Positions 10,043 through 45,761 of a DNA stretch of 61,843 nucleotides are shown here, in pieces. This DNA is from a virus, in the IMG/VR virus record IMGVR_UViG_3300042568_000857, positions 1 through 61,843 of that record; one strand, 5' to 3'. The notes below the pieces were generated by a model, which saw only the letters and a program-made list of their open reading frames with translations, made no database searches and was not told the DNA's origin. Position numbers and translations under genes: made by a program. Within the stretch, counting starts at the first letter, position 1. Each line of letters starts with the position of its first letter.

Positions 10043-10047
10043 TCGAT

Positions 10048-10062
10048 ATTGTGTGTAGTTAT
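10048..10062 (-). promoter_or_regulatory. Conserved non-SD start element, copy 2
   Basis: Identical 15-nt element before the portal start. It contains the TAA stop of the giant polyvalent gene, so it may support re-initiation after that 18-kb cistron. Confidence 0.5.
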
Positions 10063-19000: not shown

Positions 19001-22000
19001 TGTCATCGGGGATGATTGCCTCCATCGTTGGATTTTGCTCACCTTCGGGCCATGGCTGCGCATTACCCTTTTCGTCATAGACGATAGCTTCTTGGCCTTT
19101 ACCTCCGCCATTCTCATGCTCTACACGCACGGCAAAGCGGCCATTGGTTGCCCAAAGGTAAGCGCCTTCACCTTTTACTTTTTGCAAACCTTCGCCGCGT
19201 GTCGTGTCTGTGGACACCATCGGGAACATCGCCGCCACCACGTCCGCCGTGGTCTTGGCCTTCTTGAGGGCTGGCACCGCCGTAGGGGCCTGGGCCGTGG
19301 GCTTGGCGGGCAGGTCGTCGCGGGCTTGGGTCGTGGGGAACTTGTCGGCCTTCTTTTGGAAGCGGTAGAGGGCTTCTTTCTCGTTGAGGATGGTAAACGT
19401 GCCATCTCCTGGAACTTCAATAGTGACGTAGCCAATCAGGCGCTCGGCATCAGCCTTGGTGGCTGCGTGCTCGCCCGCGTAGGCTTCGCGCTGCTCTTTG
19501 CTGAGGCTGTCCCAGTTACGGGCGGCCTGCGCTTCCAAGTCGTTGATGGTGTCCTTCTGCTCCTTGGTCATGTCTGCCCTCTTCGGCGCGGCCTTTACGG
19601 CGGCGGCCACCTCGGCTAGCAGGAACTTCTTTTGCCCCTTGGCGGCGGCGGCATCGAACGGTGCGGCCTGCTTGGCTGGCTCTGGCATGGCTACTTCTTT
19701 GGCAACGGCAGCCGTTTGGGGTGGCGTGAGGTCTGGCAGGGCGGCTAGTTGCGTAGATACCTTGTCTTTCTCTGTGCCCATGCCTTTACGGAGTGTGTAG
19801 CGAAGGGCTTCGCGTAACTCGTTGTAAATCTTCTGGTGTGGAGTGTTGAAGAGTAATTGCCCGTCTGCGGCCTTGGTTCCGACATCCTGCACCAACTGCA
19901 TCACGGCCTCAGTATCGGCCTGATTGACGGCTAAGCGGATCACACGTTGCGGCATGTCCACACGGCTCTGCTGGCTGGCGTTCATGCCTAGCCATTCGCC
20001 CACAAACTGCGCCAGCGGCGAGGCGTAAGGCATGGCGACTTCTTCGGCGACTGCCTCGGCCTGGGCTGGCGTTACGGAGGCTGGGAGGGCGGGGGCAGCC
20101 TCGGCTAGGGTGGCTTCTGCGGCTTCTCTTTTGGCGGTGGCGTCATCCGCTTTGATGCGGGCGGCTTCAACTCGTTGGCGAGCAACAATTTCGTCGGCTG
20201 CTGTAGGCACGGCAGGCGGCGGCGTGGCTGTCGTGCCCTCCATGGCGGCTTTCTCGCCGCGCAGTTCTTCCAGTTTCTTTTCTAGGCTGGCAAGCTCCCA
20301 CTCTGGCTTGTTTTTGAGCTTGAGCGTGGTTTCAATCTCCTTGATGCGGCGGGCGCGCCATTCAATCTGGCGTTTCTTAGTCTCTGGGCGGGCCATCAGT
20401 TCGGCGTAGCGGGCCAGCCACTCGCGGGCGGCTTCTAGCTTGGTGTTCAGCCAGCGGCTATGTGCTGCTGCTCCGCTTTCGATGGTGATCTTGCCGAGAA
20501 TGTCGGGGGCCTCATCGGTGAGTGTCCTTGCTGGCGGGCTTCTCCATACGCGCTCGGTGCGACCGTAACCAGCTGGCTGAATCTCGCTGAATTCTTTAGA
20601 GAGTGTCTTGCGGGCCTCTGTGATGCCTTGGATGGTGGCGAGGGCAAGGCTCTGGCGGGCTTCTCCGGCCATCTCGTCGCCGCTCTTGTCGGCAAAGTGT
20701 GTGATGCACTCACTCCCAACGGCCAGCGTCCACTTTTTCCCATCGTCTTTGATGAAATAGAAGTTCTTCACTGGTTGCTTGCCGCACCACTCACAATTCC
20801 CGTGCTCTTGAGCGTTGCTGTTTGGAAATAGTGTGGGGGCTTTCTGCATCTCGGATGCACCCGCCAGATTTTGCGTTGGCCTGCCGTCCTGCGCCTCCCC
20901 GGTGAATGGGAATGCGGACCAGTCGGAAATCTTGGTGCCCATGTGGACCTGATTAGCGGCCACGGCCATCTCATAGGTCTTGATGGGCCTATCTTTGAGC
21001 GTGCTGTCTTTCAAAACTTCCTCGGCTTGCCCTTTTGTGATCGTGGCAGCGGCGGCAGCCTGCCCCATAGGCCCGCCAGCCACGGGGGCTTGGCTGGCCT
21101 GATACACGGCCTGCCAGTCGGGCTTTTCTTCCAGTGTGGAGTCAAAGCCGGTCATCAGCCGCCAAAAGGCCCGGCTGTATTGGCGAAGCTGGCCGCCTGG
21201 GGCTAGCTTGTCGAGGCGGGCGGCTAGCTCGGCTGGCGTCTTCACGCCTGCGTCAACCAGCACAGAGGCCGCCTTCATCATGGCGTCTCGGCGGTCGCGT
21301 GGTAGGTCGGTTTGCTCTAGGCTGCCCTGCGGGGGAAGTCGGAGGCTTGATTGATTGCTAGGCGGCAGAAACAGGCCGGTGAAGGCCTCGGCAAGTGCCT
21401 TGTCGGCCTCATCGGTCTGGCGGGCCTGGGCTGGCTCTGCCTGCGGGGCGGGCTGGGAGGCGGCAGGCTTGGCGCTTTTGGCATTGGCTGCCGTCATGGT
21501 CAGGATTGAATCTGCCGTGCCTTCCCATCGCTGCCAGTTGATGTCTTTGGGGCGCTTCCGGTTGTGGTTGCGCACCATTTCGTGAGCGTCTGCAATGGCG
21601 ATCTTCAATGCCTCGTCAATGTCTTTGCCATCGCGAACTGCTCGCTTCATGGACATCAGAGCGTCGGCGGCAATTCGGTCGTTGGCGTTTTCCGCACCAA
21701 CGGCAATACCCTGCCCACCTTCATAGGGGCGTGAACGCTCGTCATATCGGCGAATGGCGGCGTCGATGACTTTCAACGCTTCATCTGGACTGGCAGGCTT
21801 AGCGGCAGCCTGCGGGGCAGCCTCCGGCCCGGCCTGTATCTCCAGCCCGGCCTTGGCCTGGGCGGCGTTTGCCATGAGGGCGTCAATCACCTGGGGCTTG
21901 GTGGCTTTTTTATCCAACTCAATACCAGCCTTCTTGGCCTCGGCTTTGAGTGTGAAGATGTCGGAGGCCTCTAATTCCACGCGCATCTCTGCAACCTCGT

Positions 22001-25000
22001 CGGCGGGGAGTGCCGCTATTTGGTCGGCGTAGGCATCGCTCCCTTCAAAGATGTGTGTGTCGAGATACCCGCGAACGTCGCGCAGGGTTTGAAATTTGCG
22101 CGTGTGGGCACCGTCAATGACTTCGTACGCCCCCGGCTTACCTTGGACTGTAATGTTTGCGTCACCTTTTCTTGTGACGTGAGTGTTGCCAATAAGCGCC
22201 CATGGCTTTGGTGTTGCGTTGCGGATGCCATGGGACTCTCCATAAGCCATGGCTTCGTCTAGCGTTCTGAAACTGCGCCTAAGCTCGCGCTCTGATCGGC
22301 CATCGCCGTCTTTATCCACTCCCACCTCAAAGATAGATTGCCCTCTGTTTGTTGGGCGGATCTCCGAGATATAGAAAGCGGCTTTATCATCCTTCGTTTG
22401 GATTTCCAGCCCGGCTTTGGTGGCCATGTCGGCCACGATGGCCTGCACGGCGTCGGCCTCGGCCTCGATGCGGGCGGCCTCGGCTTTGTCGGTGACGAGC
22501 TTGGCGATGTCGCGGAGCTGGGCCACGAAGTCGCGGAGCAGGGCCATGAGGCGGTCGCGGAAGGCCGGGTCTTGGCTGGCCTCGATCTCGGCTTGGTTGC
22601 TGATCTTGCCGCGTAGGCGGGCTTCGACTAGCTGGGCGAACCATTCGTGGGCGGCGGCGAACTCTTTGCCTGCTGTGCCCTCCTGCTGGAAGTCGGTTAG
22701 CCCGCTGTCGGCGAGGTAAAGGGCCTTGCTGGCGGCTTTAGCCTCGGGGGTGAGGAGATTGTAAAGGCCGATGATCTTGGCTCCGTCCATGTTGCCGATG
22801 GCGGCCTTGTGGATGAACTCATGGAGAATGAACACGTCCATAGCCTCGCGGCCTGCCTCGGTGGTGGCGTGCTTGGCGGTGAGGCGGTTGATGAGCTTTT
22901 CTGGGTTGATGAAGAGGATACTCCCCTTTCTGCCCACTGGCTTTACCTCAAGCTCGCCGCTCTTTGCGCGCAGATCCTTGGCGTAAACGTCAAAGTCCAC
23001 GGCCCCCGCCATGGCCTTGAGCCGTGCCCGCAGGCGCTTGGCGAGGTCGAGCTTGCGGGCGGCGAGGTCTTTGGCGGCCTTGCTGGGCTTGCCCACCAGA
23101 GCCTTGCGCACCTCGGCCTCATACTCGGCTAGGGCGGCCTCTGCCCGGCCCTCTGGCGTGGCTGGGCGGGGCGGCTGGGCGGGCTGGGCCTGTCTTTTCG
23201 TGCGGATGGCCTGCCAGTATGTAGGCTGCACCATTTTGTTGGCTTCCACATTTGCAGCGGCGGCTTCAAATGTCTCATCGCTAGCGATACGTCTATTAGC
23301 TACCTCATTGGCAATACGGCCCTCAGAAGGCAAGCCTGCCGATTGTTTCAGTATCTCGGCTAACCTTTCGGGCGAGTCCGTGCGGCGGGCCTCACGCTCA
23401 AGAAGCTCGCTCTTTTGGTAATCTGATTCGGTCCAGTCTGCCGCCTCCGCCTCCGCCTGCCCGGCTGGCTGGCTGGCTGGGGCCGGGCTGGGGGCGGGGC
23501 GGTAAACGTAGAGGTCGCCTTCGCGGGTGTAGCCCTCGGGCAGTTTGATGCCGTAGGCGTCCACGGCGGAGGCGGAGACTGGTTTTTGAGCTTCCGTGGC
23601 GTCACCGATAAATCGCCGGTGCTTTCGGTCCCACATACCTTTGTCTTCTTTCCACCGCTGCTCCTTGGCTTTGTTGTCCTCGCGTGCGCTACGGATAGCT
23701 CTTTCAGCGCGTGGTCGGCGATTGCTGTCCTTTGGTAAGTCGTTGAACTCACGTTCAAGGACAGCTACATCTTCAAGCTCAGGTTTTTTAGCTTCGACAT
23801 ACTCCTCCGGCGTCATCTGCTCTGGCGGCTTGGCGGCAGGCACAAGCTGGCTGGCCTCTTTTTGGCTTGCCTGGGCTGGCTCTTGTGGCAAACTGGTTGC
23901 AGTAGCCGGAGAGATCGACCCCTCACCCGGTGCAACGTTGCTCACTCCCGCCTCCTCGGTCTGGCCGCCTTGGGGGCGGGATTGTGTCTGGGCTTTCTCT
24001 TGCACGGTCATGTCAGCGAGTCCGGCCTTAAACTCGTCTAGGCTCATTTGCTGAATGCCTCCAAAGCCTTTCCAATCGGGAGTGTAGTTGGAGCGATAAG
24101 CGGCCTCTGCTTCGGCTGGTGTGGCGTAGCCGATGATGGACTTGAACTCGTCAAACTTGCCCGTTTTGGGGTCGTTTTGAGTCACCACAAACACAGGTCC
24201 AGCGTAGTCTTTAGGTGTGCCGGGCTTAATGAACACGTCGGCTTGCTCTCCCGTGTTGTCGATGGAGCCTTTTATGTAGCCGTAATGGTCGGCTAGATTA
24301 CCCCATTCTGGGCGGCGTTTGGTGCCAGCGGCGTTCTCAATGGAAATGTTGAGGCCTGCAATCGTGGTGTGGCCTTTCTGGTAGTTGCCAGCATCCTTCT
24401 GGGCCTCAGTAGGCTCTGGCAGGGTATTATTTGAGCTGGTGGCGGCTTGCCCGGCGGCCTGATCCACGGGGGCTGCTGGAGGCTTGGCCTTGCCTGCCTT
24501 CTTGGCGGCCCTGGCCTTTTGCTCGGGCGTGGCGCGGGCCTCTTGGGCGGGGCTTAGGCCGGTTGGCGCTGGCTCAGGAGGCGCTTCTTGTGGCGGGGCG
24601 GTTTCAAGGCTTGAAATTCCTCCCTGAGATTGTCGGCCATCTTCTGTAGGCCCGGCTTCGCCCACTTGGGTATCTGCGTTTGGTGTGATGTCTTGCTCAT
24701 TGGCTGGGGCTGGCTCGGGTGTCTGGATGGTTGCAGGAACAGGATTTGCACCTGTGTTTGAAGGCAATGAACCTCCCGTGATGACTACTTCACTATCCTG
24801 CGGCGTGGATTCTGCCTTGGCAGGCTTGGCCTGTCCAGCCTTTTTCTTGGCTGGCTTGGCTTCCTCGGCGTCAATCTGGGCCTTTCGCTCGGCCTCGGTG
24901 AGGTTGACCATGGCGGCCAAGCCTTCCTGGGCCTCGTCTGTCAGCCACTCGGCGGCGGCGTTGCGGAGCACGGGCTTGTCTTTGTAGAGGTAAACGAGGG

Positions 25001-28000
25001 GTGTTACTTTGGTGTCTGGCGTGATCTTTCCGCCCTTGTTGACGAACCCAAGCGCCTCCTGCTCCTCGATGTCGAGGCTTTCGAGGCTCTGGCCCTGGGC
25101 GATCTTGACCACGCCTGCGGCGGCATGCCTAGCCACGGCGGCGGGCGGCCTGCCTGTGCGCTTGGCGGTGGCGGCGACGGATTGCGGGAGGGGAGTAGCG
25201 CCTGTGGGGTTGAACTTGGCGATTTGATTGGCAATCGCTTTAGATATTGCAGTTGGCGCAGTCAGCCCAGCCTCGGCGGCGGCGGCGACATCTTGCGGTC
25301 TAGGCCGAATAGGGGCAACTAATCCTGCTTGTGCGGCAGCTTCTATTGGATTGGGTCGTTTAGGAGCGACCAAACCAGCTACAGCAGCGGCTTCTATCGG
25401 ATCTTGTTCTGTAGGCGTCTCGGGCGCTGGCGTCGGAGCCGGGCCAGCCGGGCGGGGCTGCACGGGCATGGCTGGGGCCTCGCCTTCTGGGGGCGGGGCC
25501 ATGCCGGGGCCTTCGGTGCCTGCTTGGCGGCGGGCCTGCATGAGAGCGCCTGCACCGCCCATGAGGGCCGTGACGCCTGCCAGCTCGGGCAGGGTGTTGG
25601 CGAAGTTCTTGAATGTGGCGACGGGATCGGCGGAGGCTGCGGACTCTTGCAGGATGGTGGTAAAGTATTCGTCGGCGATCTCTTCGGGCAATTCCTCGGC
25701 GGCTCCTTTGACAAACTGTCCCAACAAACCCTTGAAGGTGTTGCGGGCCGTTTCCTGCATGGCCTTGTCACTAAAGATGCGCTCCAAACCTGTTGGTCCC
25801 ATGCCTTTAGTAATCAGCCCTGAAATCACCCCAGCCAGTGCGGCAGGCAAGGCGGCCTTGCGCCAAGCCTCGCCATGGCTTAGCCCGGCGTCTTCTTTGG
25901 CGGTGCGATAGAGGTCAGCGAACATGCTTCCCGCTGTCTGCCCGCCTGCCAGAACGGCGGCAGTGCCAAGGCCACCGCCCACGGCTCCTGCCCCGGCGAT
26001 CATGGCGGCCACGGCGGGCGTCATGCGTGCGCCCATGCCCATCACACGGAGAGCGTAATCGGTGTCGGAGCCTTCGAGGTTCTGCGCGCCTACGACTGAC
26101 TGGGTGTTCTCAGTGTTGGCGGCGGCGAGGTCGGCTAGCGTTTCGGAGCCTGTCACCATTGCGCCTACGCCTAGCGCCTGCGTGGCGATGTCTTGGAAGC
26201 CTGCCAGTAGGCCAAGGCCCACCTGCTCGCCTGCTTTGCGGAACCATGAGCGATTCTTCATTTCCTCCATGTAGGCGATGGCCTGCTTGGCGGGGGACTG
26301 GCGGGCGAAGCCTAGCTTGCCCTGTGTGGCTTGGTCTTCTTCAATCTTGCGCTCGCGCCATGCCATGAAATTATCGGCACCGGGAATGTTGGCGGACTGG
26401 CTCAGGATCTCCACGGCCTTCTCGGCGTGAATTTCTTGGAGTTTGGGGAAGGCTTTGAGTGCCTTGGCCTTGCCCTCTGGCGTGCCCTGGCTGGCTTCCA
26501 CGGCCTTCTTGTAGGCCTCGGCATCGCCCCACATAGTCGGGTTGACGGTCACGTTGCCGTCTGGAAGCGTGCGGACTTCTTCGGCGATGGGCTGGCCGGT
26601 CTTGGCGTCTCGGCGCGGGTTGCTCCAGTCGAGCTGGCGGTAAGTCTGCAAGGCCTCCTTGGCGCTCGCCACGTCCAGGCCAGCCTTGGCGGCCTCCTGG
26701 GCTAGGCGTGGCGTTTCCTCTTCTGTGCGCCAGTCATCGGAGTACAAGCCTTTGGCCCAGCCTTCATAAAGCGGCTTGGCCTTTGCCAGCGTCTCAGCCT
26801 TGGCCTTGGCCTGCCCGGCGGCCTCTGCCTGCTTGGCGGCCCGGCCTTCAAGCTCGGTGCCTGCCACGGCCAGCACGTCTCGGCGGTCTGCGGCGGCCTT
26901 CAAGGCGGCGTCTGACTCGGCCTTGGCTTCGCCGTTGTGCTCGTCGTAGTCGGCAAGGGATTGCTCTAGGCGGGCCTTCTGGATGTCAAGGGCGGCCATT
27001 TCTTCGGCTGTCAAACCTTGCTCGGCTTGGCTCTGAAACTCTTCGTTGAAGGAATTAAGTTCTGCGACAATGGCGTTTCGGCCCTTGGTGATGGTGTCGA
27101 GGGTGCCAACGGCTTGTTCCTCCTGCTCGTTGATGATGTCGGCCTGTGCCTTGACTTCGGCCACTAGGTCGTCGTCGGGCAGGGCGGCTAGGCTGGCGGT
27201 CTTGCCCGCCTTCCACTTCTGCGGGTTAATAATCTGCTCTTTAATGTCGAGGGCGCGGAGTTTGAGTTCCTGCACCTTCTTTTCGGCCTCCTTGGCGGGC
27301 TTCACCTTGTCTTTGTAGGCAAGGTAGTTCTCAGCGGCGGCCTTGGCCTGCTGGCCTGCCTCATCGGTGGCGGGTGCGGCGGCATACTTGGCGGCGGTCT
27401 CCTCCATGTCCTGCCCGGCGGCGAACTGACTCAGGGCGGACTCGGCGGCGTTGAATGCCTCCTCGTCTTCTTTGGCGGGTTTGGGGGCGGTGAGGCTGAT
27501 ACGGTCGGCTTCGAGGTCGATCACGTCGGCCTGATCCTTCAACCGCTTCACTCGGGCGGACTCGTCCAGCTTGGCGGCCTTGGCCTGCTTGGCGGCGGCC
27601 CATTCCTCATCTGTCTGGAGGGGCACGGGCTCGCCTGTCACGCGGTCAATGTTGTACGGGCGTTTCTCGCGGGCCATGGCAAGGCGGCGGTTCTCGGCCT
27701 CGCGCTTGGCGGCTGCCTTGGTGGCGTCTTCGGCTACCTTGGGGTCCACTCCAATCTCACGTTCGCCCACGCCAGAGATGGTTTTAAACACCTTGCCGTC
27801 TTTAGTGACCTGCCGGGCATTGTTCCACGCGGAACGTAGCCCGGTTGGCTGGCTGGGGTCTGCGTTGTAGGGCTCGCCCGTGGTCGGGTCGAGATAAAGG
27901 TTTGACTTGCCGGGGGCCTTCACAAGGCGGCCAGAGGGCGTGGCTGGCTTGACCAACTTTCCACTTGGAAGCTCGATTTGCTCAATATACTCGCCTGTTT

Positions 28001-28175
28001 CTAATGTGCCTGGCTCTTTCTTGGCCGAACTGGCGCGGCTAGTGGTCCTGTACCCCATTCGGCTTTGGGGCTGGCCTTGGCGGGCGTAGTCGAGTGCCGC
28101 TGGGTAGTTCCCAGGGGTTTCGCTCCATTGTTGTAGGCGACGGGGGTTGCGTAAAAGATCGGAGAGGCCGGGCAT
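10059..28175 (-). CDS. Giant polyvalent protein (6038 aa)
   Basis: One uninterrupted frame of 18.1 kb, 29% of the window. Rough modules by residue: coiled-coil rich 100-560; hydrophobic helices 650-760; a three-fold PIEAAAxAGLVAP-type repeat 920-985; inorganic-pyrophosphatase-like domain 1260-1385; zincin HEFIHK near 1787; Zn-ribbon (CEWCGK, GSECITHF) 2450-2500; a sliding-clamp-like end (FVLMPMRL) near 3170; DNA methyltransferase with EPSAGKGD and NPPF 4310-4480; ADP-ribosyltransferase-like modules 4525-4675 and 5110-5280; helix-turn-helix near 5020; hydrophobic stretch 5620-5725. Pro/Ala/Gln linkers separate them. Such phage polyvalent proteins are thought to be packaged and injected to protect or prime the incoming genome. 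It lies directly upstream of portal. Confidence 0.85.
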   Translation of the reverse strand: MPGLSDLLRNPRRLQQWSETPGNYPAALDYARQGQPQSRMGYRTTSRASSAKKEPGTLETGEYIEQIELPSGKLVKPATPSGRLVKAPGKSNLYLDPTTGEPYNADPSQPTGLRSAWNNARQVTKDGKVFKTISGVGEREIGVDPKVAEDATKAAAKREAENRRLAMAREKRPYNIDRVTGEPVPLQTDEEWAAAKQAKAAKLDESARVKRLKDQADVIDLEADRISLTAPKPAKEDEEAFNAAESALSQFAAGQDMEETAAKYAAAPATDEAGQQAKAAAENYLAYKDKVKPAKEAEKKVQELKLRALDIKEQIINPQKWKAGKTASLAALPDDDLVAEVKAQADIINEQEEQAVGTLDTITKGRNAIVAELNSFNEEFQSQAEQGLTAEEMAALDIQKARLEQSLADYDEHNGEAKAESDAALKAAADRRDVLAVAGTELEGRAAKQAEAAGQAKAKAETLAKAKPLYEGWAKGLYSDDWRTEEETPRLAQEAAKAGLDVASAKEALQTYRQLDWSNPRRDAKTGQPIAEEVRTLPDGNVTVNPTMWGDAEAYKKAVEASQGTPEGKAKALKAFPKLQEIHAEKAVEILSQSANIPGADNFMAWRERKIEEDQATQGKLGFARQSPAKQAIAYMEEMKNRSWFRKAGEQVGLGLLAGFQDIATQALGVGAMVTGSETLADLAAANTENTQSVVGAQNLEGSDTDYALRVMGMGARMTPAVAAMIAGAGAVGGGLGTAAVLAGGQTAGSMFADLYRTAKEDAGLSHGEAWRKAALPAALAGVISGLITKGMGPTGLERIFSDKAMQETARNTFKGLLGQFVKGAAEELPEEIADEYFTTILQESAASADPVATFKNFANTLPELAGVTALMGGAGALMQARRQAGTEGPGMAPPPEGEAPAMPVQPRPAGPAPTPAPETPTEQDPIEAAAVAGLVAPKRPNPIEAAAQAGLVAPIRPRPQDVAAAAEAGLTAPTAISKAIANQIAKFNPTGATPLPQSVAATAKRTGRPPAAVARHAAAGVVKIAQGQSLESLDIEEQEALGFVNKGGKITPDTKVTPLVYLYKDKPVLRNAAAEWLTDEAQEGLAAMVNLTEAERKAQIDAEEAKPAKKKAGQAKPAKAESTPQDSEVVITGGSLPSNTGANPVPATIQTPEPAPANEQDITPNADTQVGEAGPTEDGRQSQGGISSLETAPPQEAPPEPAPTGLSPAQEARATPEQKARAAKKAGKAKPPAAPVDQAAGQAATSSNNTLPEPTEAQKDAGNYQKGHTTIAGLNISIENAAGTKRRPEWGNLADHYGYIKGSIDNTGEQADVFIKPGTPKDYAGPVFVVTQNDPKTGKFDEFKSIIGYATPAEAEAAYRSNYTPDWKGFGGIQQMSLDEFKAGLADMTVQEKAQTQSRPQGGQTEEAGVSNVAPGEGSISPATATSLPQEPAQASQKEASQLVPAAKPPEQMTPEEYVEAKKPELEDVAVLEREFNDLPKDSNRRPRAERAIRSAREDNKAKEQRWKEDKGMWDRKHRRFIGDATEAQKPVSASAVDAYGIKLPEGYTREGDLYVYRPAPSPAPASQPAGQAEAEAADWTESDYQKSELLEREARRTDSPERLAEILKQSAGLPSEGRIANEVANRRIASDETFEAAAANVEANKMVQPTYWQAIRTKRQAQPAQPPRPATPEGRAEAALAEYEAEVRKALVGKPSKAAKDLAARKLDLAKRLRARLKAMAGAVDFDVYAKDLRAKSGELEVKPVGRKGSILFINPEKLINRLTAKHATTEAGREAMDVFILHEFIHKAAIGNMDGAKIIGLYNLLTPEAKAASKALYLADSGLTDFQQEGTAGKEFAAAHEWFAQLVEARLRGKISNQAEIEASQDPAFRDRLMALLRDFVAQLRDIAKLVTDKAEAARIEAEADAVQAIVADMATKAGLEIQTKDDKAAFYISEIRPTNRGQSIFEVGVDKDGDGRSERELRRSFRTLDEAMAYGESHGIRNATPKPWALIGNTHVTRKGDANITVQGKPGAYEVIDGAHTRKFQTLRDVRGYLDTHIFEGSDAYADQIAALPADEVAEMRVELEASDIFTLKAEAKKAGIELDKKATKPQVIDALMANAAQAKAGLEIQAGPEAAPQAAAKPASPDEALKVIDAAIRRYDERSRPYEGGQGIAVGAENANDRIAADALMSMKRAVRDGKDIDEALKIAIADAHEMVRNHNRKRPKDINWQRWEGTADSILTMTAANAKSAKPAASQPAPQAEPAQARQTDEADKALAEAFTGLFLPPSNQSSLRLPPQGSLEQTDLPRDRRDAMMKAASVLVDAGVKTPAELAARLDKLAPGGQLRQYSRAFWRLMTGFDSTLEEKPDWQAVYQASQAPVAGGPMGQAAAAATITKGQAEEVLKDSTLKDRPIKTYEMAVAANQVHMGTKISDWSAFPFTGEAQDGRPTQNLAGASEMQKAPTLFPNSNAQEHGNCEWCGKQPVKNFYFIKDDGKKWTLAVGSECITHFADKSGDEMAGEARQSLALATIQGITEARKTLSKEFSEIQPAGYGRTERVWRSPPARTLTDEAPDILGKITIESGAAAHSRWLNTKLEAAREWLARYAELMARPETKKRQIEWRARRIKEIETTLKLKNKPEWELASLEKKLEELRGEKAAMEGTTATPPPAVPTAADEIVARQRVEAARIKADDATAKREAAEATLAEAAPALPASVTPAQAEAVAEEVAMPYASPLAQFVGEWLGMNASQQSRVDMPQRVIRLAVNQADTEAVMQLVQDVGTKAADGQLLFNTPHQKIYNELREALRYTLRKGMGTEKDKVSTQLAALPDLTPPQTAAVAKEVAMPEPAKQAAPFDAAAAKGQKKFLLAEVAAAVKAAPKRADMTKEQKDTINDLEAQAARNWDSLSKEQREAYAGEHAATKADAERLIGYVTIEVPGDGTFTILNEKEALYRFQKKADKFPTTQARDDLPAKPTAQAPTAVPALKKAKTTADVVAAMFPMVSTDTTRGEGLQKVKGEGAYLWATNGRFAVRVEHENGGGKGQEAIVYDEKGNAQPWPEGEQNPTMEAIIPDDKAFTPYTLDTARWFSLMSQARAVIKDLPGETGTASKAVSLYRNPDGSLGSFASDVNRGDYAHNIQPEAQILAAYNPDYFQTILRVARNLGNEQIELRIQDDISPATLRAGNALFVLMPMRLNADTAPKATKPATPPPPTQAEPETPRPRIVGPHAITMNDVSDAYKLTDTEIDTAAAPVVDALKALATDITRLDKAGFPIRGGSVYTEAISGSKFTPAQLAAARIYAQRNNASSAIVDAIESAQGDWAARQAPPVTAEASPAAEPPAQPGQTREEVAEAARAFAAQDPSIPPPAPDDLETLQALRDRANHKPYKPDKLTPARLAVGIRAGWVTKTKEAKLTEKGSSQLSEWQQQQSAHDGALGALSDKLVDEAVSKWDRENDPTSWEAINAAKQAAAQPGQEAAPPAEPASIGQENVNAKHSREWSEVSTEGTMSNPRGTLRAAAIKSKTPSAPWYYQGDIRQLAFEQKAIVGGQSAATPEGAQTLKEYSAAVKDGWSYTNVKAGSYGTVYVFRKGDMVLTNAGAAALTDSTMKRPEDVPEGRGGSESNMTTRLAQYSARFVEWLQTLPESTLNSPVALSTKIRNDVLFKWVRIREPDQKPLEWRLTYLKEDGKADVQFFAPSLDELMKKAINFAVIERDMPFLERDRGYGYPEFKDAATVSEALAANGFAKPSQPAQAPAPEGQGGQVQPITGFDSARAFIAQLRKGEVTAEQVRTAWAQLKAQRPAILADLNKMKVDELLPMAGMSARKSDGKASIADSVLSTLDLYFNPDDSISYSYGGDFQTNKDNAMDEKVAKWTDEMIVEQAKARREAAEASKAAKEKALTNPETADEWDRFVWSTGRKAMSAEEVKEVLKLKSSQARNEAVRKKGESILTPEQLAAYDAVRGIDRKAQEQARTEAKSRVYGVNTGVEADIIETKHTQKGHDLFVVKLSERVERPVYDNLNAASKKLGGYYSSYSKGGAVPGFQFTSRAAAENFIAVSKGETVDQKEQIQERQEAKKSATASRLTAVADALDAKADGILNADRKTNTAKRAREAAGQEATARGMKAMAATMRNLAAAMESGEATHLDGVRMGTHVETLDGMARGAMSYWIRDRKMGMMEREKTEAGGPTAEMMDATRIPYPYLDKSTLMDLVAKGRETPGAKLLAERVAKIRMNENEGQAVTLRTDSELDDVKELAQKVTERGKPVWDTIKWKYETYDRLKAMGLTNLPSLRAALREFLQYRGQAAKEDPIKKMERELVGMKLPGFFPTPRAVIDEMVGIAGIEPGMKVLEPSAGKGDIAEAMQEAGAEVDAIELSSRLRDILTAKGVNVIDNDFTGVEPEPKYDAVVMNPPFENGQDIEHVEHAYKFLKPGGKLVAIMSAGPFYRQDKQATAFREWLDSVGGSHEAMPEGSFAGSDAFRQTGVRTEMVTITKPADEGQPAGLGLPPAGQAVTPAQDAEYLAAVAAGDLAKAQAMVDEAARKAGYDNPKVFRAETDDFDRYDMTIKKRGQSEEGVIFWTTNELVADSYMQDAKRKVSAYLKYNDPMVFDAGGSVKDRSFSKWVGWAQEDGNDAIVIRNVIDPLRLPWDKGNTGNELKGTLVGVFTPSQIKSADPVTRDESGEVIPLSERFNQQSNSILRNPPAPEGGPAASQEASQPEADEEADPDLAAFMAEQQRLAEEEAAAREALRNDPDAIDAMQASGKMSGRNLSKQFEYPEARAVYQALTAARDELGGPETVQLDKLRKWAKETFESDPEKYVQWAADMAEESKLLDVDEQAVLGQTFQFLTREARLTGDKNIRALLNKVGNYYLDTGTRLAQAMSARRDPLESPQERWTKALDIVFGPSEAVRRKLRILPTQAGKARRIASLEAQLAEVQGSRRADIEAALKTARAQETQEELLAKDDAESEKIKKAVLKNMGVTEDDLMLSGTDRVALQSAILDLPAVKEGLDAYKGKDNDGYNIMRLAFRGFSDEHIANALNLNQDDVGKFIHDATAAIIRPAVAAQVKAGTGFGGLIKAGFARLKKAVGLGLPPRQAGQAALDKEYMDAVEAGDMEKAQRMVDEAASRAAYGETVFHGTAAKEAFTVFKDYLPNFFTTSEEYATGYTGKGGGKGRVLKLFFKSSKPLDTRTPSGRKVFNEEFLPWVRAKGWQKDRFGEGAELPENELVDFTKADLLFPFLKHLQRSGDTRFDSYLVDERFGDYPPSFVPINPSQIKSADPVTRDESGQVIPLSERFNPASDSILRLPPKPIEAQPALLGGKRQTVADVTSEVNRVMAYALQSAKARNSGKLMSKVVMTPSGQRVRVFVPFDPDDMANYYAFAREYTAAKASAFDKVYEYWINWPLLSGPQTQVANITGNAAQVAWHYTGQRLAEATLNLAYQDPNAPQFREFKHILKGFWLGIGPAFEMARQTFLTEGDTIRHKYLGQPLEIDVVDGDLDKVGNIRASVGGQAGRISRLPGRVLRFTDAFFKTAIMYAEASAVAYRRAHVEAKRQGLKGQARAAFIDTEIANTLNDTSSAVWGDVMKTAEDLLFQGNNSATEFVDTVLGGYKGIKDLEKLLAEAEAKGDSDAVAELNKRIRARKFIGSLMRWIFPFQRTPTNIVRTGIKKAGGSAISLLYGLTRAGWLAMGKDGVPMIKSYPKAMQIKDASETLLAGLGWLALASMLEGDDNDDEKPVLLVGTRSHSLKERAATDQFLRKYGGENSIVWQDGKGKVLGSLPFGRYEPAATTLTTWIDAYRNYQEVKRLKSQGENASYSTYMLSSLVSSMEDKSFLQGFANAMQFVRDVEEKRENPDQSAGVKMLMNNVIPNLIKQPLRNMDDVLRERTTAGPGYAALPNPTIAPKLPVFAAQPKISTTGERLPKAFTPPARLLFQANTKVTPQPDALLYRANRLHPTKRWSPQPLQRDDYTADPPGKAKPVPITDPAKKRQFAELAGRLYAANAAKVTAKAMPSEKATPGESLIKAFKKAREDAMAAARAQAHAMGLHKATATP
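12333..12411 (-). repeat. Duplicated segment in giant gene, copy B
   Basis: Encodes SQIKSADPVTRDESGQVIPL at the end of the second ADP-ribosyltransferase-like module. A run of over 40 nt here is identical to copy A at 14150-14227, which points to a recent duplication or gene conversion inside the gene. Confidence 0.75.
14150..14227 (-). repeat. Duplicated segment in giant gene, copy A
   Basis: Encodes SQIKSADPVTRDESGEVIPL at the end of the first ADP-ribosyltransferase-like module; near-identical to copy B. The matching upstream segments (AGDLAKAQAMVDEAA versus AGDMEKAQRMVDEAA) show the whole module was duplicated. Confidence 0.75.
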
Positions 28176-28291
28176 TCCAGAGGATTACCTGATAACGGCG
28201 CGGGTGTCAATTGTACATCACCTGTGCAGATACACGAGCCTTGCCAAAGGCTTCGGCCAGCGGACCAGCATTTTGGGCAAAGTGGTTTCAT
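28001..28291 (-). CDS. Possible small Cys-rich protein overlapping the giant gene start
   Basis: 96 aa starting MKPLCPKCWSAG, with C-x2-C then C-x-C (CPKC ... CIC), a possible zinc knuckle. The ATG overlaps the HNH-2 stop as ATGA, the coupling used by real genes here. Its last 58 codons overlap the start of the giant gene in another frame, which is unusual for this genome. Either the gene is real with an embedded downstream start, or it is a degenerate remnant truncated by the giant gene. Confidence 0.4.
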   Translation of the reverse strand: MKPLCPKCWSAGRSLWQGSCICTGDVQLTPAPLSGNPLECPASPIFYATPVAYNNGAKPLGTTQRHSTTPAKASPKAEWGTGPLAAPVRPRKSQAH

Positions 28292-28833
28292 AGATGCCGC
28301 CAAACATATCTGCGCAAGATGTTTCCAATCGTGGACTGTGATACATTAAACTGCTTAGCAAGCTGACGTTGCGAAAACCTCTCACTGGAAGGTGAACGTA
28401 TTGCTATAACTTGATCGGAAGTGAGTGTAGTACAACCATGATCCTCGCCACGGCATAGTTTTTCTGGCTTTGTATGGCTTCCATCACGCTTTTTTGCGGC
28501 CATATCACGCATATTTTCCTTGTGGCTACCCAAGAAAAGGTGAGATGGGTTTACACAGGCCGGATTATCGCAGCGATGGCAGACGCAAAGGTTAGTATTT
28601 TCTCCATTCTTAATAACCCACGCAATACGGTGCGCTTGGAGTAATTTAATCCCAACTCTCATTTGCCCATACCCTTTTCGATCTCCACTCGCCATCCATA
28701 TCCAGCACGGGCTTTCCATGTGTGGCTGAGTTGGTCCGTCTTTGTTGATCTTAGCCCAAAAATTCGCCTCTTGGGCGGGCGTGAGCTTGATTTCGTTGCG
28801 TGCCAATGGCACGGTAGCAGTAGCTTCGTTCAT
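28288..28833 (-). CDS. HNH endonuclease HNH-2
   Basis: 181 aa from the ATG at 28833 (MNEATATVP); a longer in-frame start lies upstream of the hairpin and is unlikely. The N-terminal FWAKINKDGPTQPHMESPCW is the family hallmark. [20 protein letters not shown] is the HNH metal site with zinc cysteines. The C-terminal SQRQLAKQFNVSQSTIGNI is a helix-turn-helix for DNA recognition. It is visibly AT-richer than the late genes around it, which fits a mobile gene. It sits between virion-type genes and the giant gene with its own promoter-hairpin leader. Confidence 0.88.
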   Translation of the reverse strand: MNEATATVPLARNEIKLTPAQEANFWAKINKDGPTQPHMESPCWIWMASGDRKGYGQMRVGIKLLQAHRIAWVIKNGENTNLCVCHRCDNPACVNPSHLFLGSHKENMRDMAAKKRDGSHTKPEKLCRGEDHGCTTLTSDQVIAIRSPSSERFSQRQLAKQFNVSQSTIGNILRRYVWRHL

Positions 28834-28922
28834 AGTCGTATATGGATTGAGGTTAGCGCCACCGTCCTGCTGAATACAGGCGGTGGCGTGTTCATGCATA
28901 CACCAATGCGCGGCTTAATCAA
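28834..28922 (-). promoter_or_regulatory. HNH-2 leader: promoter plus 5' hairpin
   Basis: Minus strand: -35 TTGATT (28917-28922), 16-nt spacer, -10 TATGCA (28895-28900). Six nt later is a hairpin (28857-28888): outer stem CGCCACCG/CGGTGGCG, inner stem CCTG/CAGG around the 7-nt loop TATTCAG. CTAACCTCAATCC and the ATG follow. The outer stem differs from HNH-1, yet pairing is complete. Confidence 0.7.
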
Positions 28923-28944: not shown

Positions 28945-29427
28945 CTACTTCACAACCAGCGTCCCACGACGCCTTGCCTTGCGGGCCATGTCCATCAGCC
29001 CGGCGGGCTCGGTCATGGCGACCGTCTCGGCCACCTTCTGGCCTGCCGGGCGGGCCATGCTCATGGGTGTAGAGCGGGCGGGCTTCTTGGGGGTGTAGGC
29101 GGTGGGGGCGGTGTAATCGGCGCGCTTTTTCCGAGTGATTGTTCCGGCATTATCCATTGCAACATCGGAGCCCATGTCTGCGGCCTCTTCGTTGTAGGTG
29201 TCCTTGGTTTCCTCAAAGGTGCCCTCATGCTTGGCTTTAGCAACACGCTGGGCGCGCTGCCGGGCAGCTTGGATGCTGCGGCCATCTTCGTAAAGATGGT
29301 CTTGAGATTCGTAAAGGCGTTGGTTTGCCCTGGCCCTAGCCTGATCTGCCCCGCCTTGGGCTAGGCGGGAGTAGCCAAGGATCTGGCGGCGGCCTTTGCT
29401 ATTGTAGCCTTCGGCGTCGTATTTCAT
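28945..29427 (-). CDS. Small basic virion-region protein
   Basis: 160 aa, Ala/Arg/Lys-rich, starting MKYDAEGYNSKGRRQILGYSR, probably helical and non-membrane. It is coupled to the previous gene by a TAATG overlap and shares that gene's Ala/Gln/Arg character. Location between terminase and the giant gene suggests an internal virion or assembly protein. Unrecognised. Confidence 0.55.
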   Translation of the reverse strand: MKYDAEGYNSKGRRQILGYSRLAQGGADQARARANQRLYESQDHLYEDGRSIQAARQRAQRVAKAKHEGTFEETKDTYNEEAADMGSDVAMDNAGTITRKKRADYTAPTAYTPKKPARSTPMSMARPAGQKVAETVAMTEPAGLMDMARKARRRGTLVVK

Positions 29428-29984
29428 TAGCGTCCGATCTTGGGGGCTGAGATTGGTTTGCGGGCTGATCCTGCCGCCGGGTTGCGAGCAAGGCTGGCTT
29501 GGTTAGCGGCAATCTGCTGCTGTAGGCGGAGATTTTCTGGATCGGCGGCAACGCGGGCCTGCGCCAAGCCCATCTGGGCCTTTTTGCGGGCGGCTGCATT
29601 GGCGGCGGCAAGGCCTCCTGTAGCCTGATTTAGCGTCATACCACGACGGCCAGAGCCTCCTCGGGCGATACCTCCGCCGGGCTGGCGCTTGCTTCCGGCT
29701 TGGCTGAGGGCGTACTGGAAGGCAGTTTGCCCGGCTGCCCGGTTCTGTTCGGCTTCGTAGTCCTGGGCGTCGGCCTCGACCTCGGCGGTAGCAAGGTTGG
29801 TCTGGGCGGTGAGTTGGCCTTTGAGTTGGGCGAGCCCCTGTTGCTGCAACTGTGCCCAGAACCGCTTCCCCTCGGGGCTGGCTGAGTCCACCCACCTGCC
29901 TGAAACAGGGTTAAAAACCTTCGATCCGCTGCCGGACGATTGATTGACGTTTGCTTGGTATCCGGTGCTGGTATAATCGGCCAT
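29427..29984 (-). CDS. Ala/Gln/Gly-rich virion-region protein
   Basis: 185 aa. The N-terminus is Ser/Gly/Asn-rich (YQANVNQSSGSGSKVFNP). The centre is a long Gln/Ala helix likely to form a coiled coil (LQQQGLAQLKGQLTAQTNLATAEVEADAQ is cut here into LQQQGLAQLKGQL and later parts). A Gly/Arg patch follows. The start follows a G-poor CTCACTCTCACCACA leader typical of this genome. It may be an internal core or ejection-type protein; this is inference from composition and position. Confidence 0.5.
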   Translation of the reverse strand: MADYTSTGYQANVNQSSGSGSKVFNPVSGRWVDSASPEGKRFWAQLQQQGLAQLKGQLTAQTNLATAEVEADAQDYEAEQNRAAGQTAFQYALSQAGSKRQPGGGIARGGSGRRGMTLNQATGGLAAANAAARKKAQMGLAQARVAADPENLRLQQQIAANQASLARNPAAGSARKPISAPKIGR

Positions 29985-30001: not shown

Positions 30002-32434
30002 TTAAAAGAGTTTTCGCCTCTGCCTCTCAAAAAGCAAGCCCGTATTTTCGTCCCCTCGATACCCTCCACCGCTGTGCTCCGGGGCCAGCCTGCCCGCCTG
30101 CATGGCTGTGGCAGCTAGGCCAAGCGTCCAGACACCAAGGGCCGCCACGTCTAGCCAGTGCTGGGCATAGCCTGACAGCACCTCAAACCCGCCTTGCTCG
30201 GTGGCGGTGATGCCGCCCATCTGCCGGAGCACGGTCGGGCACCACATCTCAACGGCCCCATCGCGCCAAAGCTCCTGCAACACTGCGTAGGCCTGTGCCC
30301 GTTCCTCGGCCCCGAACTCATGGCCGGGCTTTCTGATGGCCGTGGCCTGCCCCACCCGGCGCTCAGCTAGGCTCTGCTGCCGGGCTGCCACGCCCACGCC
30401 CTGCTCGCGTAGCTTCTCTACCGCGCCGGGGATGCTGACGACATCGGCCACCACGGGCACCATGCCGTAGTAGGTTGAGGCCATGCTTGCCCACGAAAGT
30501 AGCTTGTCCTGATTGATACCGCCCTCGTCCACACAGGCCGCCACCATCTTGGCTGGCCTTTCGGCGCTGGCGTTCCTGTCCCAGCCTGCCGCCCGCCACA
30601 CGGCCAAGGCTCCGTTGATGACGGCGACGATGTAGCGCGGGCCTTGCAATGGCGTCTCCCACACTCTTAGCCAGCCGCCTGCATCGTGCCGGGCTGCCAC
30701 ATGCGCCCAAGTCGTGCCTGCCCGGTCCAAGGCCATGAGGGTGGGCAAGTGCTCGGGTAGGCTGGCCGTGGCGGCCTGGAGGCGAGTTGGGTCGAAGTAA
30801 AGGTTAGCCATGATGCCGTTGCTTGTGTGTGGTAGATGTCCTTCCATAAACGCCTCCGAAACATACCTAGCACAATCTGAGCAATGTGAACTCCAATCGG
30901 CTACGATGTCATCCATGAACTTGTTTTCCTTCGTCGGGTCCGGCTTGCGGCGGTAGGCGGCTATGGATTCAAGTAGAAAAGCGCATTTCTTGTCGTCAAT
31001 CCAGACGGATTTCTTGAGCAGGCCGGTGAAATGGTTGATGCCCAGCCACTTGTTGCCCGTCTGCTTGAGCTGCACCACACGGCCTGACACGCCTTGAGCT
31101 TTTAGCTCAGCCTCAAACTCGGCAAAGTAGGTCTTGCCGTTCTTCTGTCTCTGCCCGGCGTCGTGTGGCAGGTAGTGAGTGCCGTAGCGGTAGCCCTTTT
31201 CTTTGAGCAGGCGCACGCGGTCGGCCACCTCGCCGCCTTCAATCTCGGCGTCTAGGTCGATGAACCGGCGTTGTTCGTGGTCGTGCTGAACGTAGAGGCA
31301 AGGCGAGTTTTCCGGCGCTCCCAAATCCCAGAAAGTATCCACCTCCAAGTCCGGCCTGTAGGCCACCTCTCCCACGCGCCCGGCGGCCTTAGCCATGCCA
31401 AGGGCGGCCCCCCAGATTGAGCCCTCAATGTTGGCGTTCCAACACTCATGTATGTTTGTCGGGTAAATAAACTGTGCCTCATGGTGGTAGATGTCCAAGG
31501 CCTCCTCCTGATACCAGTACATCTGGTCGTCATCCAGTGTGTCCTCTGTGCCTTCCAGAGCCTTGGCAAAGTAAGCCCGCACCTCTGGCCGGATCAGGCT
31601 AGGCTCGGCGCATGGCAGGCGGCGGGCGGCGATGACGTACCATGGGAAGAATAGAACGCGGGGAGTGCGGGGAGTGCATTTGTCGCGGGCAAGCGGTAGG
31701 CCGGTGTGCGGGTCGAGGCCCTTCTTAGCGATGCCCCACACGTCGCCGCTCTTGCCGCCATACCATGTACTCTCGATGATGCGGATGCCCTCGGCGGCGG
31801 CTGGCCATGCTCCGCGCAGATACTCGGCAGACATGGCCGGGTGCTTGGCGGCCAGCTCGGCCCATTCTGACATCCAGAGGATCTGGTTTGTGCCGCCTCG
31901 GGCCTTTTGACCTGCGTAGAAGGTGCTCTTGCTGGTGGCGTCGTCGCCGTGCTGGATGGTGAAGATGCCGGGCGAAAGGCTTTTTTTAATGGTCGTCCAG
32001 GCTCCTTTCAGGGCTTCGGGCAGACGCTCGAAGGCAAAGAACACTTTTTCATCTAGTTTGCGGTCAGCGTTTGGGATGTCGATGTCACAAAGCGAACACT
32101 GCACCGACGAGCCAAAAAGGATGGTGTCGAGCACGATCAAAGCAATAACCGTGCTCATGCGGACTTGGCGGGCCTTGGGCACCACTAGCGTTCGGCTGCC
32201 GTGAATGTAGATTTCCTCCAACACCACCAACTGCTGCGGCGTCGGGTGGAACTCGATAGGCTCGCCATCCTCCGAACGGATCTTGTAAATGCCGCCACAA
32301 GTCAGCCGCCAAAACGGATCACCAAAGTTAGCGAACACCTCCGCCTCATCCAGCCCTAGGCCAGCCGCCAGCCCGGCAAGGTCTGGCCCGGCTGGGCAGG
32401 CAGGCTCAGGGCTTGGCGGGCGGGCGGCTGGCAT
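30002..32434 (-). CDS. terL: Terminase large subunit with a second nuclease-like domain
   Basis: 810 aa, long for a large terminase (usually about 450-650). The ATPase has a deviant Walker A, KARQVRMST (residues 87-95), of the Terminase_6-like KARQxGxST type. The Walker B position reads ILWMSEWAE (Glu190). A first RNase H-like nuclease fits Asp370 (FWDLG), Asp425 (LPHDAG) and the Asp cluster at 508-513. A second similar pattern follows: Asp570 (LMALDRAG), Asp636 (AACVDEGG), Asp762 (HWLDVAALG). The enzyme pumps and cuts DNA during packaging. TAATG overlap with the DUF3310 gene. Confidence 0.8.
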   Translation of the reverse strand: MPAARPPSPEPACPAGPDLAGLAAGLGLDEAEVFANFGDPFWRLTCGGIYKIRSEDGEPIEFHPTPQQLVVLEEIYIHGSRTLVVPKARQVRMSTVIALIVLDTILFGSSVQCSLCDIDIPNADRKLDEKVFFAFERLPEALKGAWTTIKKSLSPGIFTIQHGDDATSKSTFYAGQKARGGTNQILWMSEWAELAAKHPAMSAEYLRGAWPAAAEGIRIIESTWYGGKSGDVWGIAKKGLDPHTGLPLARDKCTPRTPRVLFFPWYVIAARRLPCAEPSLIRPEVRAYFAKALEGTEDTLDDDQMYWYQEEALDIYHHEAQFIYPTNIHECWNANIEGSIWGAALGMAKAAGRVGEVAYRPDLEVDTFWDLGAPENSPCLYVQHDHEQRRFIDLDAEIEGGEVADRVRLLKEKGYRYGTHYLPHDAGQRQKNGKTYFAEFEAELKAQGVSGRVVQLKQTGNKWLGINHFTGLLKKSVWIDDKKCAFLLESIAAYRRKPDPTKENKFMDDIVADWSSHCSDCARYVSEAFMEGHLPHTSNGIMANLYFDPTRLQAATASLPEHLPTLMALDRAGTTWAHVAARHDAGGWLRVWETPLQGPRYIVAVINGALAVWRAAGWDRNASAERPAKMVAACVDEGGINQDKLLSWASMASTYYGMVPVVADVVSIPGAVEKLREQGVGVAARQQSLAERRVGQATAIRKPGHEFGAEERAQAYAVLQELWRDGAVEMWCPTVLRQMGGITATEQGGFEVLSGYAQHWLDVAALGVWTLGLAATAMQAGRLAPEHSGGGYRGDENTGLLFERQRRKLF

Positions 32435-34992: not shown

Positions 34993-35066
34993 CTGATACT
35001 TTCGTTTTATATCAGCCCGTGTTTTCTGGCACTAAGCCTCTAAAATGCGCTCTTTTAGTATCAGCC
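34993..35066 (-). promoter_or_regulatory. Operator-like repeats between terS and the DNA-binding gene
   Basis: On the minus strand GGCTGATACTAAAA (about 35053-35066) and GGCTGATATAAAAC (about 35005-35018) repeat about 48 nt apart. The second copy is also one arm of the inverted repeat CTGATA-11 nt-TATCAG (34993-35015). It precedes the short leader frame and the HTH gene, so an autoregulatory operator is plausible. Confidence 0.4.
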
Positions 35067-35702
35067 AGTCAGCCTGCCAGCCTCCAAACGCCGGGCAATG
35101 GGCGAGCCGGGTTTTATGAGAGCTTGCATCAAGTCCCTCACCGTTGGCGTTCCCGTGCCTGCCTCCTGCCCTGGCAAGGCAGGCTTGGCCTCTAGGCCGG
35201 TCTGCTTGGCGATGGCCTGGAGGGTGGCTAGGGGGCAGGGCTTCTCGACTTCGATGGTCGTTTTAGGCCCGGCGTCGGTCATGGTTTCGGTGACTTTATA
35301 CTTCTTACAAAACCTTGATTCTGCGCTGATTGCGGCCAGCGGCGTCTCAAACATATCCTTCATATTGCCCACCAGCCAAGCCGCGGTCACGCCATGGGCC
35401 TGCCCAGCGGCCTGGGCAGCGGCTTCTTTGAGGGCGGCGATCTCGGCGGCCATGTCGGCATCCCAGCGGGTGCCTTGGCTCGCGCAGCCGTCGCGGGTCG
35501 TCTCTGGCCTGACCATGCGGTAGGCCTCGGCGGCGGGCGTGCCGGTGGCTCTGAGGGCGCAGTACTGGGCCTTCTCGCCGGGCGTGGCCCATGCCTGCCT
35601 GCGTGGTATGACCTCGGCCTGGGCTGGCCTGCTAGGCGAGGCTGGGCGGCGTTTGGCCTTGGCTTTCTTGGCTGCGGGCTTGGGCTTTGTGTCGGATTTC
35701 AT
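35061..35702 (-). CDS. terS: Terminase small subunit
   Basis: 213 aa from the ATG at 35702, after a start element related to ATAACTACACACAAT. A basic N-terminus (SDTKPKPAAKKAKAKRRP) is followed by a helix-turn-helix-like unit (YCALRATGTPAAEAYRMVRP), as in Terminase_2-type small subunits, then a helical multimerisation part and a C-terminus like PTVRDLMQALIKPG. It would recognise phage DNA and recruit TerL. Reasonably sure; the family is variable. It is the first minus-strand gene after a divergent promoter region. Confidence 0.65.
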   Translation of the reverse strand: MKSDTKPKPAAKKAKAKRRPASPSRPAQAEVIPRRQAWATPGEKAQYCALRATGTPAAEAYRMVRPETTRDGCASQGTRWDADMAAEIAALKEAAAQAAGQAHGVTAAWLVGNMKDMFETPLAAISAESRFCKKYKVTETMTDAGPKTTIEVEKPCPLATLQAIAKQTGLEAKPALPGQEAGTGTPTVRDLMQALIKPGSPIARRLEAGRLTG

Positions 35703-35851
35703 GTATTGTTTGTAGTTAATGCCCATTTACGCAGAGGAAAAGTGATCTTTGCGCAAAAAGTCGTTGATATATTTTAATTCGTGTGCGTTTATACTGGTGT
35801 CAGTGGGCGCGTTTGCCTGCTACAAAACTAAAGACATCCGACAAAAACACT
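35703..35851. promoter_or_regulatory. Divergent promoter region (terS / early plus genes)
   Basis: A 149-nt AT-rich gap between divergent operons. On plus, TATACT (35790-35795) is a good -10 candidate, with a poor -35 (TTGATA at 35764, 20-nt spacer). The palindrome TTTGCGCAAA (35748-35757) could be an operator. The plus leader ends with GACATCCGACAAAAACACT before the ATG, resembling leaders at 46170 and 51425. Confidence 0.45.
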
Positions 35852-38638: not shown

Positions 38639-39184
38639 TTAGATGTGACTCCACGCTTTACGGTTGATGATTTTGCCAATGATCGGAAAATCAACACCAA
38701 ACTGCGCAGCTAGCCTTTTTAGGGTGGTTCCACCAGCGGCATAAAGCGCCCGAATCTCAATGACTTTGGTGGCGGTGAGTTTGGCGTTACCGTTGACTTC
38801 GCCAGCGGCGGGTTTATTTCGGCCCTTGCTAGCTCTGTCGCTAACATTGTCCGCATGAGCGCCTAGAAAATAATGATCAGGGCGGCAGCATGTTGGAACG
38901 TCGCAACGATGGCAGACACATGTACCGTGATACCCCTCCCCTCGTGGGATTGGGCCGTTAGTTATTGTCCAAGCTACCCGATGAGTTGTTAGCATCTTGC
39001 CGCCAACACTTATCTGACCGTAGCCTCTACTGTTTTTGCCAGCTTTCCAAATCCAGCACGGCGTTTCCATGTGGGGCATCGTGGGACCGTTTTTATCAAT
39101 CTTGGACCAGAATCTCGCGATGTCTTTTGCGCTGAGGTTGACGGGCGGCGGGGGCGCGGTGAGAGTAGAATCAGAGCTTTGCAT
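38639..39184 (-). CDS. HNH endonuclease HNH-3
   Basis: 181 aa. It has the family hallmark [20 protein letters not shown], the HNH core CVCHRCDVPTCCRPDHYFLG, and a helix-turn-helix tail (TLKRLAAQFGVDFPIIGKII). The N-terminus, MQSSDSTLTAPP, differs from the MNEA starts of its paralogues, but its leader has the same promoter-hairpin layout. It sits between the SSB-like gene and a secreted-protein gene. Confidence 0.88.
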   Translation of the reverse strand: MQSSDSTLTAPPPPVNLSAKDIARFWSKIDKNGPTMPHMETPCWIWKAGKNSRGYGQISVGGKMLTTHRVAWTITNGPIPRGEGYHGTCVCHRCDVPTCCRPDHYFLGAHADNVSDRASKGRNKPAAGEVNGNAKLTATKVIEIRALYAAGGTTLKRLAAQFGVDFPIIGKIINRKAWSHI

Positions 39185-45185: not shown

Positions 45186-45761
45186 ATGAACGAAGCTACA
45201 CCAACCGTGCCACTGGCGCGCACACAAATCAACTTTACTCCCGCACAAGAGGCGAGATTTTGGGCTAAAATCAATAAAGATGGCCCGACAATGCCGCACA
45301 TGGAAAGCCCTTGCTGGGTATGGACGGCGTGCAAAAATAAAGCAGGATATGGCAGCGTAAAAGTGGTGGATAAAACACAACTAGCCCACCGCGTCGCATG
45401 GATGCTTAATCATGCTGAAATTACCAATATTTTAGTCTGCCACCGCTGCGACAATCCGGCTTGTTGTCGCATTGATCACCTTTTTCTCGGTACGGCTGCT
45501 GATAATGCTCGCGATAGGGCCGCCAAGGGTCGTAACAACTCGGCTAGCGGCGACAAGCACGGTTCGCGGACAAAACGCGAGAGCAGACCAAGAGGAGAGG
45601 CTAACCATTTTGCAAAATTAACCGCTACTACAGTCATTGAAATTCGCTCGCTGTATGCCGCTGGAGGCATTACTTTAACGGCGCTTGCCGTGCGGTTTGG
45701 TGTTGGTGTATCCACAATTCACGCCATCGTTCGCCGCAAAATCTGGCAGCACATCCCATGA
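45186..45761 (+). CDS. HNH endonuclease HNH-4
   Basis: 191 aa starting MNEATPTVPLART. Family hallmark [23 protein letters not shown] core [18 protein letters not shown]; a middle SRPRGEANHFAKLT linker; and a helix-turn-helix tail ending KIWQHIP. Its stop overlaps the RusA start (ATGA), so the HNH leader promoter probably drives RusA too. AT-richer than the genes downstream. Confidence 0.9.
   Translation: MNEATPTVPLARTQINFTPAQEARFWAKINKDGPTMPHMESPCWVWTACKNKAGYGSVKVVDKTQLAHRVAWMLNHAEITNILVCHRCDNPACCRIDHLFLGTAADNARDRAAKGRNNSASGDKHGSRTKRESRPRGEANHFAKLTATTVIEIRSLYAAGGITLTALAVRFGVGVSTIHAIVRRKIWQHIP

Follow-up and report, generated by a model that had tools for sequence, protein, structure and literature searches.

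The question raised by this locus is whether a single large terminase (TerL) carries two nucleases and, if so, whether both of them cut. Other TerLs consist of an ATPase motor that pumps DNA, plus a nuclease. The protein analysed here is encoded in a 61,843-nt stretch of viral DNA (the window; IMG/VR record IMGVR_UViG_3300042568_000857). A sequence-only reading had described one ATPase followed by two successive nuclease-like acidic patterns, and had offered a second cutting specificity or a structural role for the extra domain.

Reading frame and terminase core

The 810-aa open reading frame (ORF) and its single ATPase were confirmed. With its stop codon the ORF occupies 30002-32434 on the minus strand (Table 1) and encodes the TerL of an uncultured phage. 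At least 15 near-complete relatives were found in other IMG/VR metagenome contigs, and a more distant fused relative (L035) has 777 aa. Since the ORF is common to contigs from different metagenomes, it is neither a chance product nor an assembly artefact. The C-terminal extension with the second domain was found in every complete relative recovered.

Matches to PHROG families were obtained at residues 37-223 (26724, 4e-25), 286-527 (2472) and 57-539 (the TerL family PHROG 2). By tblastn, 343 phage records were matched, mostly over residues ~31-530, and none reached 80% query coverage. The closest TerLs were those of F116 and Itty13 (26-28% identity over residues ~31-530). Like the window core, they contain an ATPase with KARQxG and SE and a nuclease with WDxG, LPHD and a C-terminal Asp, and residues ~38-530 correspond to an ordinary TerL of this kind, i.e. 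an ATPase plus one nuclease. The F116 (543 aa) and Itty13 (523 aa) proteins, however, stop after this nuclease and are without a second nuclease fold. In hhalign comparisons with T4-type TerLs, the ATPase (residues ~36-278) was matched at 97-99%. A deeper core alignment reached 99.4% and ran from the ATPase into nuclease 1, where it covered motifs I and II only.

K87, T95 and S189-E190 were kept in all 20 aligned TerLs (20/20). The SE at the Walker B position, which had been singled out as an oddity, is therefore the family norm, F116 and Itty13 included. Residue 92 of the KARQ-x-G P-loop was Arg (R92) in the window clade (six TerL cores) and Gly in the 14 others. In L083 (Vibrio phage K469), the TerL is seemingly annotated as two ORFs that overlap, one of them holding the nuclease part.

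For the first nuclease, D370 and D425 had been assigned correctly and were invariant (20/20). The third acid had been sought at D508-513; since 508 and 513 are variable and D520 is invariant (20/20), the third catalytic acid is most likely D520. Judged by its sequence, nuclease 1 (residues ~345-530) appears to occupy the place of the usual TerL nuclease and is predicted to be catalytically active.

Table 1. Coordinates of the TerL features and of the HNH-like genes in the window.
Feature	Residues	Coordinates	Strand	Basis or remark
TerL ORF: ATPase, nuclease 1, C-terminal putative pseudonuclease		30002..32434	-	ORF and relatives
N-terminal leader	1-44	32303..32434	-	98.6% DNA identity to L019 stops at 32303
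ATPase region	~45-335	31430..32302	-	PHROG 26724 (4e-25), hhalign to T4-type TerLs
Walker A-like KARQVRMST	87-95	32150..32176	-	
Walker B position	S189-E190	31865..31870	-	20/20 TerLs
Nuclease 1	~345-530	30845..31402	-	PHROG 2472, F116/Itty13 homology, profile alignment
Nuclease 1 motif I (WDLG)	D370	31325..31327	-	invariant 20/20
Nuclease 1 motif II (LPHD)	D425	31160..31162	-	invariant 20/20
Nuclease 1 motif III	D520	30875..30877	-	invariant 20/20
C-terminal extension	540-810	30005..30817	-	missing from F116-type TerLs
Second terminase-nuclease fold, degenerate (putative pseudonuclease)	~585-775	30110..30682	-	hhalign, AF2, VIA
Position of motif I Asp (G20c D294, T4 D401)	I606	30617..30619	-	lost
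Position of motif II acid (G20c D347, T4 E458)	D664	30443..30445	-	kept
Position of motif III Asp-Asp (G20c D428-D429, T4 D541-D542)	Q758-H759	30158..30163	-	lost
Asp before second domain	D570	30725..30727	-	unconserved
Asp at non-motif position	D636	30527..30529	-	
Asp opposite Met in canonical nucleases	D762	30149..30151	-	
HNH-like paralogue		28288-28899	-	
HNH-like paralogue		38639-39184	-	
HNH-like paralogue		45186-45761	+	
HNH-like paralogue		56411-57022	+	

Elsewhere in the window, a 6038-aa ORF (10059-28175, minus) combines inorganic pyrophosphatase, methyltransferase and polyvalent ART domains and represents a giant polyvalent protein. A tRNA-Met was called inside this ORF (24728-24802, minus) and is possibly spurious. 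Four paralogues resembling HNH homing endonucleases (about 45-58% identical) are also present; the slot of the first one (28288-28899) varies between relatives.

Fold and metal site of the second domain

No family was assigned to the extension in Pfam, PHROGs or NCBIfam. By tblastn in phages and plasmids no relative was recovered, nor was there one in the genome contig collection, and a profile search of PDB sequences with the extension gave chance matches only. A weak tblastn match (MT837023, E 0.3) was dropped; no terminase-like ORF was seen in that contig.

Twelve extensions, drawn from three lineages, were combined into a profile and compared by hhalign with nine pooled T4-type TerLs. The TerLs were retrieved with a hand-written consensus query, and the test itself took in real fetched sequences only. 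The alignment covered 175 columns (score 61.2, probability 94%, E 1.3e-7). With trimmed alignments, the real score was 54.0; none of 60 column-shuffled controls exceeded 22.6, and the reversed control scored 11.1. The signal came from pooling the nine TerLs, single-sequence hhalign against single TerLs being too weak.

Residues 550-785 were modelled with AF2 at moderate quality (pLDDT 64.5, pTM 0.70, loops weak). A full-length AF2 model made with close relatives (pLDDT 37) was excluded from the evidence. Using the 550-785 model, the nucleases of T4 gp17, RB49 gp17 and G20c ranked first in Foldseek. The superposition on terminase nucleases that had been suggested earlier returned this fold, with VIA-align Z scores of 14.6 for the G20c nuclease (5m1q; 145 residues, rmsd 2.7), 14.5 for RB49 (3c6h) and 13.7 for T4 gp17; Sf6 and herpesvirus nucleases scored about 10 and RuvC about 7. 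It is thus well supported that residues ~585-775 adopt a second terminase-nuclease fold, which is RNase H/RuvC-like and of the T4 gp17/G20c type. T4 gp17 carries Pfam Terminase_6C (PF17289). Neither the window nor any of the extensions contained a match to this family above the curated cut-off, so the second domain is described as distantly homologous and is not counted among the Pfam members.

T4 and RB49 gp17, G20c and P74-26 TerLs share fold and profile with the second domain of the window protein. In these proteins it is the sole nuclease, located directly behind the ATPase and equipped with an intact D-E/D-D site, whereas the window domain is an extra nuclease that has lost motifs I and III and lies below Pfam detection.

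In the G20c TerL nuclease, D294, D347 and D429 are all needed for cutting (PMC5389553); the P74-26 TerL has them at identical numbers. The window residues aligned to them are I606, D664 and H759, and the same positions read T/D/Q in L012, V/A/E in L035 and T/D/D in L050. The motif I Asp was absent in every lineage (I/T/V). At motif III, members of the window group had Q-H or T-Q, and acids were still present in L035 (D-E) and L050 (D). Two of the three metal-binding carboxylates of a G20c-type nuclease were therefore missing from residues 585-775, and at the sequence level the region lacked metal-site geometry, which had been named in advance as grounds for refutation.

The second acidic pattern had been read as D570/D636/D762. 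These residues, like D370, D425 and the SE at residues 189-190, are present where they had been described, but D570 precedes the domain, D636 aligns with G, S or M and D762 with M, and the distant relatives L035 and L050 have retained none of them. The claim of two successive nuclease regions thus holds for the fold, as seen in profile, predicted structure and fold search, and fails for the second metal site.

The two-metal site of the second domain has decayed, and from the aligned residues we infer that the domain is catalytically inactive. Given D664 and the motif III acids of L035 and L050, weak or one-metal activity would still be conceivable. The same residues, together with the correct terminase-nuclease fold, would suit a working second nuclease with a different cutting specificity. 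This is nevertheless very unlikely, as the motif I Asp is gone in every lineage, the window group has Q-H or T-Q at motif III, G20c cannot do without any of the equivalent residues, and the acids that had been proposed instead are unconserved. The structural role that had been named as the alternative fits better. We hold the two-nuclease-fold architecture and the degeneracy of the second domain with high confidence.

In BFVD, the best structural match was A0A6J5P7V0 from an uncultured Caudovirales phage (747 aa, 25% identity, E 2e-14), with the entry name 'Terminase RNaseH-like domain containing protein'. Its length, known from the database listing, makes the same architecture probable. A search of the open-access literature gave no description of a TerL that has a second nuclease, or one that is inactive or degenerate. 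The sequence type has already been deposited, yet, as far as found, it is probably undescribed.

Origin of the second domain and exchange of the core

An origin of the second domain as an internal duplicate of nuclease 1 was rejected (hhalign scores 12.9-23.4, no meaningful alignment). The full-length profile matched T4-type TerLs twice and in colinear order, with the ATPase at ~36-278 and the second domain at ~589-773, and nuclease 1 was skipped. This double match could reflect either displacement of an older T4-type nuclease by nuclease 1, with later loss of catalysis in the former, or fusion with a neighbouring gene.

In L050, the TerL is a 528-aa ORF, followed by a small ORF and then by a homologue of the second domain as its own gene, which begins at an ATG overlapping the stop of the small ORF. 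Downstream of this homologue lies a gene similar to the one that follows TerL in the window. The separate gene suggests that the second domain could act in trans. Any order of age between the fused and the split state would be read from three lineages only.

Within the extension, dN/dS was 0.04-0.21, i.e. under purifying selection. In addition, the core was found to be exchanged independently of it. Compared with the window, L019 is 98.6% identical upstream of TerL, diverges at 32303 (residue 44), rejoins at 30846 (residue 530) and continues at 93.6% identity. The swapped segment (32303-30846, minus) is exactly ATPase plus nuclease 1, and the replacement core is about 45% identical. The same core exchange was found in a second backbone (L026 vs L023 and L014). 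Through the exchange, the N-terminal leader and the second domain remain with the backbone.

These data bear on two further explanations. The second domain might be a relic, left when an F116-type nuclease was inserted between an ancestral ATPase and a T4-type nuclease that then decayed and has little function now. The colinear double match to the same T4-type TerL set and the loss of the catalytic residues would agree with this. Strong purifying selection and retention through core exchanges, however, argue for a present function, and a stand-alone gene as in L050 would be odd for a relic, which makes this explanation unlikely. As an origin, nuclease replacement can be combined with a present role as an accessory module.

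It is also conceivable that extension and core exchange evade host defences that sense TerL (e.g. Avs), with the extra fold acting as shield or mimic. TerL cores of ~45% identity are indeed swapped in near-identical backbones, and PDB entry 8dgc is Avs3 bound to a phage terminase. We consider this highly improbable, given that recombination near HNH genes would explain the exchange without selection by defence and that the extension itself is not exchanged.

Proposed role in DNA packaging

The second domain is probably a non-catalytic accessory module of the packaging motor that uses a nuclease fold. In such a motor, the ATPase of the ~38-530 core would pump DNA and the D370/D425/D520 nuclease would cut the concatemer. 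The second domain would not cut and could serve as an accessory motor module, clamp, docking or regulatory element. It might hold DNA, or dock on nuclease 1, the portal or the small terminase, and thereby control motor assembly or the switch from pumping to cutting. In the window, a weak portal candidate lies at 7973-10132, the small terminase is likely encoded at 35061-35726, and the product of the neighbouring gene at 29427-29984 would be another possible partner. For a regulatory or docking role specifically, we judge the chances to be about even. More tentatively, and with some doubt, a new class of packaging-motor subunit might be proposed, i.e. a dead terminase-nuclease domain, fused to TerL or stand-alone, that controls cutting by the live nuclease or docking of the motor.

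To our knowledge, it is still unsettled how a packaging motor silences its own nuclease while pumping and then cuts. With a putatively live and a putatively dead nuclease in one chain, and the dead one separate in a relative, such control would be testable in cis and in trans. The whole motor core is exchanged while the domain behind it stays fixed, and TerL thus shows modularity at a boundary that is rarely taken into account.
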